Virus record (IMG/VR): IMGVR_UViG_3300021420_000071
Location: 1-42,640 of that record
Strand: one strand, 5' to 3'
DNA length: 42,640 nucleotides
Source of the DNA: a virus
A program made the position numbers and the translations under genes. The notes beneath the pieces were generated by a model, which made no database searches, had not been told where the DNA came from, and saw nothing but the letters and a program-made list of their open reading frames with translations. This document shows positions 1,801-11,619 of the stretch, one piece after another (positions within the stretch are counted from its first letter, which is position 1; each line of letters starts with the position of its first letter).

Positions 1801-3168
1801 ATGCAATCATTCCCAACCATGCAAGAATCCCAAGAAAATAGTAAGTTTATAGAAGATAAATTTAGATGCCTTGCTTGGAGAGTTGCTAATGGGGATATAG
1901 GACAATTTAGCTATGGAATGGAAAATAATCAGGTTTACTTTTTTGATAATGGGTATTGGTTAGAATTGAGAGAAATAGAGTTTTTATCCAAAATAGAAAA
2001 TGGTTTATTAGATACAAAAGGAAATAAAATTCTTACGCACTATGATGTGCAAAGGAGAAAAAAAGTGATAGAGAATTATAAAATCCTGAGTTTTAAATCT
2101 ATTAATGATTTTAATAAATATCATCTTTTAAATTTTGAAAATTGTATGCTTGACCCCATTGGTCTAAATGTATTGCCGCATGACCCTAAATATTTATCTA
2201 CAATCCGTATTCCCTATAAATATACACTATTGGCAGAATGTCCTTTATGGATAAAAACAATTAATGAAATATTTGAAAAAGACAATCTTAAAATTAATAT
2301 TCTTCAGGAATTCTTCGGACAATGTTTAACAAGGGATATAAAACAAGAAAAAGCATTATTATTATTGGGAGAAAGTAGGTCTGGAAAATCCACTATATTA
2401 AATACACTTCATAACATGGTGGGGATTAAAAATTGTTCTACAGTTCCATTAAAATATATATTAAACCCAGTTTATACTTCAATGATGATACATAAGTTAA
2501 TAAATTTTGATAAAGATGTGAGTAAAAAAGCTCAAGACTATGAGGAAGATTTTAAAAAAATTGTAACAGGAGAAGAAGTTACGGCAAATGATAAATACGA
2601 CGACCCGTTTACATTTAAACCATTTTGTAAAATGGTACTGTCAGCAAACTCATTCCCTCGCATTACAGACCATTCATCTGCTTTGTATAATAGATTGATA
2701 CTTATACCATGTGAAAGAGTATTTTCTCCAGAAGAACAAAACAGGGATTTAAGGGAACAACTATTAATTGAACTTCCAGGTATTTTAAATTGGGCTTTGG
2801 ATGGTTTAAAAAGATTAAATAAAAGAGGAATGTTTGAAGAAGTAAATTTTATGAAAAATGCTTTAAAAGAATTAGAGGACGAAAATAATCCGGCAAGTCC
2901 ATTCTTTTATGACCATCTTGAAATTGAAGAAGGAGCTTTTATTGAAAAAGGTGAATTGTATGATTATTATTATGCTTGGGCTAAAAAAAATGGAATGTAC
3001 ATTCTAAGCTCTGCTTTATTTTCAACGGCATTATTTAAAAAATATTCTGCTCATACCCCTAAAGATACACAACATCCACAAACACGAAAAAGGATATGGA
3101 GAGGTATTAAGTATGTGGCAGATAAATCAAGGGAACCTATTAAACAACAAGTTCAATGGCAAGATTAA
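1801..3168 (+). CDS. D5/SF3-type replicative helicase
   Basis: This 455-residue protein has a Walker A motif GESRSGKST at residues 190-198, a Walker B-like LINFDKD at 233-239, and a motif C-like KMVLSANSFPRITD near residue 280. This is the order seen in superfamily 3 helicases of the poxvirus D5/phage P4-alpha group. The N-terminal 180 residues resemble the region before the ATPase in D5-type proteins. I see no catalytic primase motif, so it is more likely a helicase than a fused primase-helicase. It would unwind phage DNA at the origin. No phage DNA polymerase was found, so host polymerase is presumably recruited. It is very AT-rich, like the neighbouring HNH genes. An in-frame ATG at 1819 is an alternative start. 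Confidence 0.8.
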   Translation: MQSFPTMQESQENSKFIEDKFRCLAWRVANGDIGQFSYGMENNQVYFFDNGYWLELREIEFLSKIENGLLDTKGNKILTHYDVQRRKKVIENYKILSFKSINDFNKYHLLNFENCMLDPIGLNVLPHDPKYLSTIRIPYKYTLLAECPLWIKTINEIFEKDNLKINILQEFFGQCLTRDIKQEKALLLLGESRSGKSTILNTLHNMVGIKNCSTVPLKYILNPVYTSMMIHKLINFDKDVSKKAQDYEEDFKKIVTGEEVTANDKYDDPFTFKPFCKMVLSANSFPRITDHSSALYNRLILIPCERVFSPEEQNRDLREQLLIELPGILNWALDGLKRLNKRGMFEEVNFMKNALKELEDENNPASPFFYDHLEIEEGAFIEKGELYDYYYAWAKKNGMYILSSALFSTALFKKYSAHTPKDTQHPQTRKRIWRGIKYVADKSREPIKQQVQWQD

Positions 3169-3232
3169 GCCCCTACCCGATACGGCGCCTATATAACGCT
3201 ATGAGGGTTGAATGGTGAGAATCCGACTGGGG

Positions 3233-3361
3233 ATTGTGGGCTGTGGCGTGGTAGCCTGACCTGCGGTTTGCAATGAGCAGATAGTGGAACAGCAATCTCC
3301 ATAATGTGGTGAGATGCCCTGACCCGACCTAAAGGTTGCAGACCAACTGCCAGCCCATAGT
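3233..3361 (+). ncRNA. Structured RNA element, copy 1
   Basis: GGGCTG (3238-3243) pairs with CAGCCC (3351-3356), and the stem extends outward to about 11 pairs. Inside are a GGC-GUGGUA-GCC hairpin (3245-3256), then UGAC, a variable insert of about 70 bases, and a GCAG-ACCAA-CUGC hairpin (3338-3350). The loops UGGU and ACCA are complementary and could kiss. The same core recurs at 9755-9828 with different but still paired closing-stem bases. No continuous reading frame spans this copy. It lies in the 200-base gap between the helicase gene and a small basic-protein gene. Confidence 0.55.
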
Positions 3362-3372
3362 AAATTTGTCCT

Positions 3373-3534
3373 ATGATTGCAGACAGAATAATGAATTGGA
3401 TATGGGGTAGAGGGAATTGGGATAAAAATTCTCCTGCTTATAGATTTTGGAAAAGACAAGTTAAAAGACGTAAAAGGTCTTTGAAATGGTGGAATCAGAA
3501 TTGTGATAGGTTATCTAAGAAATATGATAATTAA
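3373..3534 (+). CDS. Small basic Trp-rich protein, 53 aa
   Basis: The frame may start at ATG 3373 or ATG 3391 (47 residues). Neither has a clear ribosome binding site. The product contains MNWIWGRGNWDKNSPAYRFW followed by KRQVKRRKRSLKWWN. It is strongly basic and aromatic, suggesting nucleic-acid or membrane contact. It directly follows the structured RNA element. A similar motif seems familiar from phage small proteins, but I cannot name a family. Confidence 0.55.
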   Translation: MIADRIMNWIWGRGNWDKNSPAYRFWKRQVKRRKRSLKWWNQNCDRLSKKYDN

Positions 3535-3550
3535 ATTTGTCCTACCGACA
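3532..3550 (+). repeat. Post-stop TAAATTTGTCCTA element with hairpin
   Basis: TAAATTTGTCCTA at 3532-3544 is identical to 3361-3373, and related TAA-ATTTGTC sequences follow the stops at 3770 and 3946. At this copy TGTC-CTACC-GACA forms a small hairpin (3538-3550). Its loop is complementary to the GGTAG loop of a TTGTC/GACAA hairpin at 3951-3966. Regulatory or RNA-processing use is conjecture. Confidence 0.4.
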
Positions 3551-9175: not shown

Positions 9176-9455
9176 GCTGTCGGAAGTGAAGTCGTTGATG
9201 CCGGAGAAGAAGGAAATATTCCTAAACCATAGTGCACCTCAACTACATGAATGCAAAGGTTTTAATGAAGCCATCGACAAAATCTCTTCCCGTCGTCTCA
9301 GCGTGGAGATAGATGAGCAAGCTATCGCCGACATATGCACCAGAGTCTTTTTGGATTATTGGAACCGCTACAAATCTAATCCAAGTGGCGACGTGTTTGC
9401 CAAAGCCATCATCGCCTCCAAAGACCAGATAACGGAGATTAGGTATTGTCCATGA
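9168..9455 (+). CDS. Hypothetical protein, 95 aa
   Basis: The product has a basic start (MPKLSEVKSLMPEKKEIFLN) and a helical second half (AIADICTRVFLDYWNRYK). The N-terminal motif ends with SSRRLSVEIDEQAI. Overlaps with both neighbours indicate one operon. No family was recognised. Confidence 0.45.
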   Translation: MPKLSEVKSLMPEKKEIFLNHSAPQLHECKGFNEAIDKISSRRLSVEIDEQAIADICTRVFLDYWNRYKSNPSGDVFAKAIIASKDQITEIRYCP

Positions 9456-9679
9456 AACGTAGTAAAGCCTTGCGTATATATTTTTTAATTCGCCCAAAAT
9501 CTCGTCAGATTGTCTCATGGTTAATGAAATGGAATACCAAAAAGACAGTCAAAGAGAACGCAAGCATATTAGGTGTAAGAAAAAATACGGTAAATCTTTT
9601 TGCGATTTTACATAAATTGAATTACAAAGGTAAGCGTGGCAAGATTGCAAAGTATCAACATTGGAAATCTAAAGATTAG
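9452..9679 (+). CDS. Helix-turn-helix DNA-binding protein, 75 aa
   Basis: ATG 9452 overlaps the previous stop (ATGA-type). The product is very basic and includes NTKKTVKENASILGVRKNTV followed by NLFAILHKLNYKGKRGK. This reads as a helix-turn-helix in which the turn is at ILGV and the recognition helix at KNTVNLFAIL. A role as an early or late transcription regulator, or in replication initiation, is plausible. Nothing decides between these. Confidence 0.55.
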   Translation: MKRSKALRIYFLIRPKSRQIVSWLMKWNTKKTVKENASILGVRKNTVNLFAILHKLNYKGKRGKIAKYQHWKSKD

Positions 9680-9710
9680 ATATTGTCCATCAACAGAAAA
9701 AGGGTAGTGC

Positions 9711-9845
9711 ATGATTGACATAATTATCTCTTTTGCTTGCGGACAAAAACTTTATGTCCAGTGGCGTGGTAGCCTGACAGGAAGTACAGCTCACAACTGC
9801 ACCATGTTGCAGACCAACTGCCTGGACAGAAACTTTGGAGGATAG
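9711..9845 (+). CDS. Possible small ORF over RNA copy 2, 44 aa
   Basis: An open frame from ATG 9711 to TAG 9843 reads MIDIIISFACGQKLYVQWRG, then STAHNCTMLQTNCLD. GGGTAG lies upstream but there is no strong ribosome binding site. It covers exactly the element shared with 3233-3361, where the equivalent frame is broken by stops. The shared sequence is therefore more likely RNA than peptide. A conserved peptide that has decayed in copy 1 cannot be excluded. Confidence 0.3.
   Translation: MIDIIISFACGQKLYVQWRGSLTGSTAHNCTMLQTNCLDRNFGG
9755..9828 (+). ncRNA. Structured RNA element, copy 2
   Basis: GTCCAG (9756-9761) pairs with CTGGAC (9822-9827). Inside are GGC-GUGGUA-GCC (9763-9774), UGAC, a short variable arm with its own weak hairpin, and GCAG-ACCAA-CUGC (9809-9821). 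Loop bases UGGU and ACCA are complementary. An upstream GGAC (9741-9744) could pair with GTCC instead, giving an alternative fold. The closing stem ends about 10 bases before the GGAGG of the next gene, a riboswitch-like position. No known class was recognised. Confidence 0.55.
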
Positions 9846-9848
9846 GAA

Positions 9849-9944
9849 ATGCCTGATGATTATCAAATAACTGGACTAATAGTTGTGTTTTTTATTACCG
9901 CTGTAACAATAATGTTGTGTATAGCAATTTTTTTGAAAGGATAG
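9849..9944 (+). CDS. Tiny membrane protein, 31 aa
   Basis: The ATG follows GGAGGATAGGAA. The product is MPDDYQITGLIVVFFITAVT and a few more hydrophobic residues ending FLKG: one membrane helix. It lies directly behind RNA copy 2, which may regulate it. The next gene starts 3 bases after its stop with the same GGATAGGAA leader. Confidence 0.5.
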   Translation: MPDDYQITGLIVVFFITAVTIMLCIAIFLKG

Positions 9945-10106: not shown

Positions 10107-10439
10107 ATGAGATGCTACTGGACCAACAGCGTAAATTGCAAGTATTGCGGTTTCACAAACCGTTACTTCATCATCCGACAAGACAAAAAGAAAGGCCGCA
10201 TTGTCATATCCCATACAAAAGTTTGCAAGGAGTGTTACGCTGAGTTGATGCGAAAATGTGGGGCCAAGTACAGACAAACTGAAAAGTACAAAAAAGTATC
10301 TACAGCCTACAGGTTAAATCATATAGAAACTTATCGAATATCAAGTATGCTGTCAAATAGAAGGCTAAGGGTAAGAAGGCGTGAAAAGAAACGTCTTGAG
10401 AAACTAAGACAACAGATGGCCGGAAAGGTTCTTATATGA
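10107..10439 (+). CDS. Zinc-finger-like basic protein, 110 aa
   Basis: The protein has CKYCGFTNRYFIIRQDKKKG followed by KVCKECYAELMRKCG, two CxxC pairs about 30 residues apart that probably bind one zinc ion. A strongly basic C-terminal half follows (SNRRLRVRRREKKRLEKLRQ). The layout resembles small phage proteins that bind nucleic acid and sometimes accompany HNH genes, but no HNH motif is present. The stop overlaps the next start by 4 bases. Confidence 0.55.
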   Translation: MRCYWTNSVNCKYCGFTNRYFIIRQDKKKGRIVISHTKVCKECYAELMRKCGAKYRQTEKYKKVSTAYRLNHIETYRISSMLSNRRLRVRRREKKRLEKLRQQMAGKVLI

Positions 10440-10714
10440 AAATAATTTTAACCGAAATAGTCATATCGATTTTCGTTTTAGCAGGAATGTTATTCTTAGC
10501 TTATACCGATACAAACGCTTACCCTCAAGAAATATCTGTCAAGGAACATCCTGCAACAGAACGTAATGTAGCTATATTCCATGACCTTACATCAGCCCAA
10601 CATTGGGCCAATGAGATGCATGGACAGATCGTTAAGGGAGAGAATGAGACTTATCTTGTGGTCTATAACGAAACCGCTTGGGAAAGTACTCCGGCTGATT
10701 GGAGGGATAAATGA
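10436..10714 (+). CDS. Exported or anchored hypothetical protein, 92 aa
   Basis: The N-terminus (MKIILTEIVISIFVLAGMLF, then LAYTDTNAYP) looks like a signal peptide with possible cleavage after TNA, or a membrane anchor. The rest contains FHDLTSAQHWANEMHGQIVK and YLVVYNETAW. This is an aromatic, beta-rich pattern I cannot assign. It overlaps both neighbours (ATGA), placing it in the same transcript. Confidence 0.5.
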   Translation: MKIILTEIVISIFVLAGMLFLAYTDTNAYPQEISVKEHPATERNVAIFHDLTSAQHWANEMHGQIVKGENETYLVVYNETAWESTPADWRDK

Positions 10715-11044: not shown

Positions 11045-11619
11045 AAAACAACCCCTTCATCTCCTGCCCATACCCCAACCACAGTAAATATTGTAGGATT
11101 ATTCTTAACTGCCATGTCGATGTCGTCAGGGGAAGCATTGTTTGGTATTAAAGCTATGCATCCAGCATCTATGGGTTTTAAATATTGAGTTAATTGCTTG
11201 ACAGTGAAAAGAGATATTTCTGAACAGTCATAAGTTCCAGGAAGCCTAATCCAAGGTAATCCAATAGCACGTCCTATGATGTTTCCAAAGTCATAGATTT
11301 TCTTGTACCATGGCTGGGCTAACCTATTAAGAATTGCTGATCGGAAAGCAATGTTGAAAGTTTCAGTGGCGTTGGTAATCTTAATGAATTTAAGTTGACC
11401 ACCTTGCTTCAGGTACTTGTCCATAGGAATTTCATGGTATCCCCCAAAGTCTTGGGTTATGAATTTACCAGGATTTATGGCCTGCATACAGTGGTCATAG
11501 TTAGATTTGGTTCGCCAATCAATAAGAAACGAGACCAAATCGGTGGCTTGATTGCTCAAGACAAAATGAAACGGCATATCAGATTCGGTGAAGGTTCGAG
11601 GGTCTTTTATTGAGGTCAT
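11041..11619 (-). CDS. NlpC/P60-like (YiiX-type) cysteine peptidase
   Basis: The 192-residue protein has NYDHCMQAINPGKFITQDFG, EIPMDKYLKQGGQLKFIKI, and then GTYDCSEISLFTVKQL. A His in the first block and a Cys in the DCSE block, in that order, match the circularly permuted papain-like fold of the YiiX/NlpC-P60 group. Such enzymes cleave amide or ester bonds in peptidoglycan peptides or lipids. It has no signal peptide and lies in the lysis cassette, so it may be the endolysin released by a holin. A virion-associated role is the alternative. Confidence 0.6.
   Translation of the reverse strand: MTSIKDPRTFTESDMPFHFVLSNQATDLVSFLIDWRTKSNYDHCMQAINPGKFITQDFGGYHEIPMDKYLKQGGQLKFIKITNATETFNIAFRSAILNRLAQPWYKKIYDFGNIIGRAIGLPWIRLPGTYDCSEISLFTVKQLTQYLKPIDAGCIALIPNNASPDDIDMAVKNNPTIFTVVGVWAGDEGVVL

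Follow-up and report, generated by a model that had tools for sequence, protein, structure and literature searches.

Two Copies of a Structured Repeat in a Tailed-Phage Genome

The stretch of viral DNA analysed here, a window of 42,640 nucleotides, carries the same pair of short hairpins at two places, which raises the question of what these repeats are, in which molecule they function, and what a phage might gain from them. The window encodes tailed-phage portal, major head, and terminase-like proteins, and its first repeat lies between a primase/helicase gene directly 5' of it (1801-3168) and a small ORF beginning at 3373. The hairpins are contained in two 16-mers, GGCGTGGTAGCCTGAC at 3245-3260 and 9763-9778 and GTTGCAGACCAACTGC at 3335-3350 and 9806-9821. 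As the original prediction had claimed, both are shared exactly, and the scan of the window found no further site for either, even at 3 mismatches. In shuffled sequences, at least two matches to a 16-mer occurred in 2 of 100 shuffles, each motif being taken singly. The stretch between the 16-mers measures 74 nt in copy 1 and 27 nt in copy 2, in agreement with the first estimates of about 70 and 27 bases.

Copy 1 lies on the plus strand at 3232-3362, where the covariance model R1, which was built with it, scores 70.5 bits (E 5e-18). It is enclosed by the closing stem P1, ATTGTGGGCTG/CAGCCCATAGT, whose strands at 3233-3243 and 3351-3361 form 11 contiguous pairs including a G.U and whose column pairs covary. 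Within it follow the hairpin P2 (GGC-GUGGUA-GCC, 3245-3256, loop 3248-3253, with an invariant loop GG), the variable arm P3 (3258-3337), closed by GAC at 3258-3260 and GUU at 3335-3337 in a base that covaries at 3/3 pairs, and the hairpin P4 (GCAG-ACCAA-CUGC, 3338-3350, loop 3342-3346), for which relatives provide compensatory variants. Copy 2, also on the plus strand at 9750-9833 (69.8 bits, E 8e-18, again with R1 built with it), repeats this arrangement with a P1 of 7 contiguous pairs, TGTCCAG/CTGGACA (9755-9761 and 9822-9828), whose column pairs covary as well. Its P2 (9763-9774, loop 9766-9771) and P4 (9809-9821, loop 9813-9817) have the same sequences as in copy 1, as identified by motif scan and covariation, while its short P3 (9776-9808) is likewise closed by GAC/GUU. 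Copy 2 ends 15 nt before a start codon at 9849. Single-sequence folding gives z scores of -1.6 for copy 1 and -0.8 for copy 2, which is insufficient to reveal the element; the proof is comparative and comes from about 60 viral records in which the stems differ yet remain complementary.

Several smaller features surround the two copies. Just 5' of copy 1, the segment 3173-3235 contains the T-loop-like GGTGAGAATCC and a CCCC/GGGG pair, suggesting a degenerate tRNA-like RNA that adjoins the element. Around copy 2 (9741-9761 and 9822-9835), GGACAAAAACTTT just 5' of the element is a near-repeat of the 3' side of P1, GGACAGAAACTTT, and the 5' strand of P1 could pair with either of them. In addition, AAATTTGTCCTA and GATTAGRTATTGTCCAT recur near gene ends of the early region, at 3359-3372, 3530-3543, 9440-9455, and 9677-9692, and TTGTCC is not enriched across the window as a whole.

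Relatives in Uncultivated Viruses

Exact and gapped scans identified the same design, both hairpins between complementary flanks, in about 60 IMG/VR records, which represent more than 50 distinct elements after duplicates were collapsed. These relatives were gathered by exact core motifs, with no selection on P1 or P3. Because sequences were fetched in this manner, the invariance of the core is overstated, and the true diversity of the family, together with any cellular relatives with changed loops, is undersampled. Four members, L150, L152, L156, and L163, score weakly (41 bits) and appear to have a P4 loop enlarged by an extra hairpin, with ACCAA kept. Weak R1 matches in L045, L126, L034, L131, L144, L149, L141, L138, and L159 were judged by eye to be chance.

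Neither copy, nor any element in 33 related loci, matched a model of Rfam 15 at the gathering threshold or at a relaxed E-value, which bears out the view that the repeat belongs to no known class; the only matches in these loci were ordinary tRNAs, located elsewhere in three of them, and ARAGORN called no tRNA at the elements. When cultured phages (INPHARED) and plasmids (PLSDB) were searched by blastn, neither the two copies nor a short core sequence returned anything beyond chance matches. An exact core scan of 257 Gb of bacterial and archaeal genomes (85,000 genomes) yielded 4 matches and no true element, all four being attributed to the chance rate because they are without the P1 closing stem. 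A covariance search with stricter filters covered 678 genomes (387 and 291) from two phyla, which were convenience choices rather than known hosts, and returned one 26-bit match; this was rejected, since its bases, read by eye, appear to be coding sequence and its P1 pairing is poor. Literature searches found no description of such a motif. The repeats are thus confirmed as members of a previously undescribed family of structured RNAs in uncultivated virus records.

A Four-Way Junction in Cloverleaf Order

The fold was derived from an alignment of 40 sequences (A1), on which the pair and covariation counts are based. In the closing stem, 12 of 12 pairs vary on both sides with pairing kept, so that the covariation first noticed between the two copies extends through the family. 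Standard pairs make up about 95% of the cells at its eight inner pairs. Over the whole element, double changes affect 18 of 26 pairs, with 222 compensatory cells compared with 77.5 +/- 7 in shuffles and a covariation score of 0.505 compared with 0.144. Sliding one partner by 1-3 columns, which served as a control, destroys the signal.

The base of the variable arm also proves to be a helix of three pairs, all three covarying (for example GAC/GTT, GAT/ATT, GTC/GAT, and GAA/TTT), and the junction is therefore four-way. The structured repeat proposed at the outset is accordingly upheld by its more than 50 relatives, while the fold first drawn for it was incomplete, having missed this helix and with it the fourth arm. 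Compensatory swaps in P2 (GGG/CCC, GGA/UUC, GAC/GUC, GGU/ACC) and P4 (ACAG/CUGU, GCAA/UUGC) occur elsewhere in the family and are rarer than in the closing stem; the strong conservation of both hairpins stems partly from their use as bait, and the variants surfaced when one or the other was left unconstrained in the scan. When the third P2 pair was left free, it was C-G in 27 cases and G-C in 2, with no mismatches, and L050 and L052 carry the same element with GGA/UUC in place of GGC/GCC in P2.

In order, the element consists of P1, a U, P2, one nucleotide (mostly U), P3, P4, and P1', with junction strands of 1, 1, 0, and 0 nt and a total size of 75-150 nt. P1 may have any sequence, with 4-21 bp of contiguous pairing, P2 has 3 bp and a GUGGUA loop, and P4 has 4 bp and an ACCAA loop and directly abuts P1' with no spacer. 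The conserved fold is, with near certainty, a tight four-way junction in the order of the tRNA cloverleaf. A simple energy model that excludes pseudoknots favours an alternative long stem, GGCGUGGU-ACCAACUGCC, for some members, whereas covariation favours the four-way form.

The two conserved hairpins had been predicted to carry complementary loops, and this complementarity holds across the alignment. The GG of loop 2 and the CC of loop 4 are invariant in 40/40 sequences, an invariance that is partly due to their being bait motifs and cannot in itself prove pairing, while at the two outer kissing positions U-A occurs in 36/40 and 38/40 sequences and a standard pair in 37/40 and 38/40. Most likely, the GG of loop 2 pairs with the CC of loop 4 to form an elbow.

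Function in Sense-Strand RNA

Two kinds of evidence assign the function to RNA of one strand. G.U outnumbers A.C in the cells of the inner eight P1 pairs (20 versus 3) and of the P3 base (30 versus 2), giving 50 versus 5 in total, and the commonest first P3 pair is G.U. Elements are also oriented like the nearest upstream gene in 31/36 cases and like the downstream gene in 31/35. The large excess of G.U over A.C, together with this co-orientation, indicates function in the sense-strand RNA. A folded-DNA element, such as an attC-like recombination site or a mobile repeat, would suit the intergenic position and the cassette-like behaviour seen in L050/L052 (see below), but it is barely credible, as the excess of G.U requires RNA of this strand, the orientation is fixed, and no flanking direct repeats or target-site duplications were found.

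A protein-coding repeat was likewise considered and rejected. The frame WRGSLT...LQTNC had been named as the feature whose conservation, at the expense of the stems, would speak against an RNA. The opposite pattern is observed: because arm lengths (25-101 nt) are out of register modulo 3 and the stems are kept, no protein frame is conserved, and the changes preserve pairs, not codons.

Comparison with Known RNAs

The closest architectural parallel is tRNA. Both proceed from an acceptor stem through a 3-bp D-like arm with a GG loop, a third arm, and a T-like arm back to the acceptor, with one-nucleotide spacers between helices 1 and 2 and between 2 and 3 and none between the last arm and the acceptor; the element most likely shares the loop-loop elbow as well. 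Unlike tRNA, the element has no 7-bp acceptor but a P1 of 4-21 contiguous bp, a range too wide for a true acceptor; its T-like arm has 4 bp and an ACCAA loop rather than 5 bp and a UUCRANY loop; and its third arm measures 25-101 nt, with no variable loop, no CCA, and no standard anticodon arm. The tRNA model of Rfam (RF00005) matched neither the window copies nor the elements in the 33 loci, and the likeness is one of topology only.

Among phage RNAs, T4 RNAs C and D (species 1 and 2) are similar in being small stable RNAs of no known function annotated in a tRNA cluster, and RNA C has a T-arm-like hairpin at its end. Their homology was rejected, as R1 found no match in the T4 cluster, the best score with filters off being 5 bits. 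ROOL and GOLLD are phage RNAs of unknown function with kissing loops, often located near tRNA islands, and the linker region of GOLLD sometimes holds tRNAs (PMC12286853). With 659 nt and over 800 nt, respectively (PMC12286853), they are far longer than the element and differ from it in sequence and structure, and their Rfam models did not match the elements.

The original prediction had likened the fold to purine-type riboswitches, in which two hairpins on one closing stem are joined by loop-loop pairing. The parallel hairpins with putative kissing loops do adjoin P1, which could act as a switch and is often followed by a U-run. However, the purine aptamer is a three-way junction around a conserved ligand core, whereas the element has four helices, and junction strands of only 1, 1, 0, and 0 nt leave no room for such a core; a single U is the only conserved junction nucleotide, and the genes downstream are unrelated. 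Metabolite riboswitches are normally found in cellular genomes, while the exact core had no true match in the 85,000 examined. The likeness was therefore abandoned, and a purine-type riboswitch sensing a small molecule is very improbable. A self-cleaving ribozyme, suggested by the compact junction and a putative loop-loop contact of the kind seen in hammerheads, is more doubtful still, since no Rfam ribozyme matched and the helices, the kissing pairs, and one U account for the conserved positions, so that hardly any remain to form an active site.

Genomic Context

The elements occupy gaps between co-directional genes, often at 1-10 nt from the preceding stop codon and 13-30 nt from the start codon that follows. 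At least four T follow P1' in 14/39 elements compared with a background of 8.7%. Promoters upstream, found in 11/39 against a background of 18%, show no convincing enrichment, and therefore the element is not clearly an autonomous gene; only L003 has a near-perfect promoter. One copy is present in 45/48 records, including contigs of 175 and 203 kb, while the window and G017 carry two and G016 three, the third being weak. No neighbouring protein was found to be shared across records, and the neighbours range over primase, SSB, SbcC-like, Neck1/minor head, tail chaperone, terminase, Gam/Cas4 exonuclease, UvsX, and DNA polymerase genes. L050 and L052 are homologous only over the element (-17 to +96) and in short patches elsewhere; in L013, L066, L067, and L068, the element is kept behind related upstream genes, while in L013 and L067 the gene immediately downstream is a different one. 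From these patterns, the element behaves as a cassette that is not tied to the following gene.

This placement bears on the strongest rival to a trans-acting RNA, a role in cis on transcription, in which the nascent RNA would bind RNA polymerase in the manner of HK022 put, or P1 and the U-run would form a terminator or attenuator tuning the operon. The put RNA consists of two hairpins and lies in early leaders, whereas the element is a closed four-way junction and is found in many locations; the two are alike as phage RNA elements in an operon with no known protein partner. The put RNA is also a precedent for a phage RNA that acts alone (PMC9378689). The elements lie mid-operon on the strand of the genes, frequently just past a stop codon, and a universal RNA polymerase would explain a core that is constant in unrelated phages. 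Against this, there is usually one copy per genome, its location is not constant as that of an early leader would be, and two thirds of the elements are without the U-run, so we regard a role in cis as unlikely, though worth keeping in view.

An element for mRNA processing or stability, in which the tRNA-like fold would be cut by RNase P or RNase III or would block exonucleases and thereby separate or protect gene messages, is a fainter prospect. It would be in keeping with the tRNA topology, the intergenic site, and the proximity of tRNAs in L016, where the element lies 17 nt after tRNA-Ser within a tRNA array, and of tRNA-like RNAs in L063 and L035. RNase P measures a fixed 12-bp stack of acceptor and T stems, with which a P1 of 4-21 contiguous pairs is at odds, and the usual single copy per genome argues against such a role as well.

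Variable Arm and Proposed Role

The variable arm has a median length of 54 nt. A strict tRNA T-arm, comprising the stem and UUCRANY, is present in 9/46 arms, whereas 0.1 would be expected from shuffles. Upstream of it, YUGG occurs in 8/9 such arms and could be the matching D-loop contact, YUGG alone not being enriched. These T-arm modules point to the tRNA machinery, to which the position of the L016 element in a tRNA array provides a further link, and the single copy, the cassette behaviour, and the missing gene partner favour a trans-acting noncoding RNA over a regulator of the adjacent gene. Our preferred reading, advanced tentatively and at slightly less than even odds, is that the element is a discrete trans-acting phage RNA, a tRNA-shaped decoy or scaffold whose rigid core displays a variable arm.

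In this trans-acting role, the element would be transcribed as part of phage operons, about a third of its members having a U-run terminator of their own, and would accumulate as a compact stable RNA protected by its core. The core would be read by a widely conserved host component, because it is near-constant across unrelated phages and no shared phage protein lies nearby. P3, about one fifth of whose instances carry a real tRNA T-arm, would be what changes from one host or target to another, and the RNA would act in trans during infection as the decoy or scaffold. Some observations weigh against such a role: a cis element, too, would be expected after a stop codon and ahead of the following ribosome-binding site, some records carry 2-3 copies, and the window arms show no antisense match to their own genome beyond chance. 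A broader and more speculative idea, which we consider rather doubtful, is that uncultivated phages encode a repertoire of tRNA-shaped noncoding RNAs with a fixed cloverleaf core and elbow, whose interchangeable arms would be displayed in the infected cell, for instance as decoys for host defences that target tRNA or as adaptors for host machinery.

The strong covariation and the presence of the element in about 60 virus records with unrelated genes, set against its non-detection in cultured phages, in plasmids, and in cellular genomes, point to a function that is useful to many phages and has been missed by laboratory collections. The tRNA-like architecture and the T-arm inserts provide a concrete lead, either to the tRNA machinery or to defences directed against tRNA, and the element is short enough to be tested readily by probing, expression, and pull-down. 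The findings also show that phage noncoding RNA arrays extend further than the catalogued examples of T4, ROOL, and GOLLD.

tRNA-like RNAs near the Element

Further structured RNAs accompany the element in a few records. Directly upstream of it, in L035 (5173-5290) and L063 (about 11342-11480, minus strand), lie tRNA-like RNAs whose acceptor, D-arm, and T-arm are convincing but whose anticodon arm is replaced by a long extra-armed domain; neither ARAGORN nor Rfam, even at an E of 2, found them. Another long tRNA-like unit with no Rfam match is located about 100 nt past the element in L011 (about 10310-10470). Its acceptor, CACTGATGATGG/CCATCATCAGTG, has 12 bp, its D-like loop reads GTGGTA, and it contains a hairpin resembling a T-arm. 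A second structured RNA, whose closing stem ACCGGCGGC.../...GCCGGU precedes a T-run, occurs in L035 (5035-5515) and L044 (45-182, minus strand), and in these two phages it stands just downstream of the element, after both copies in L035.
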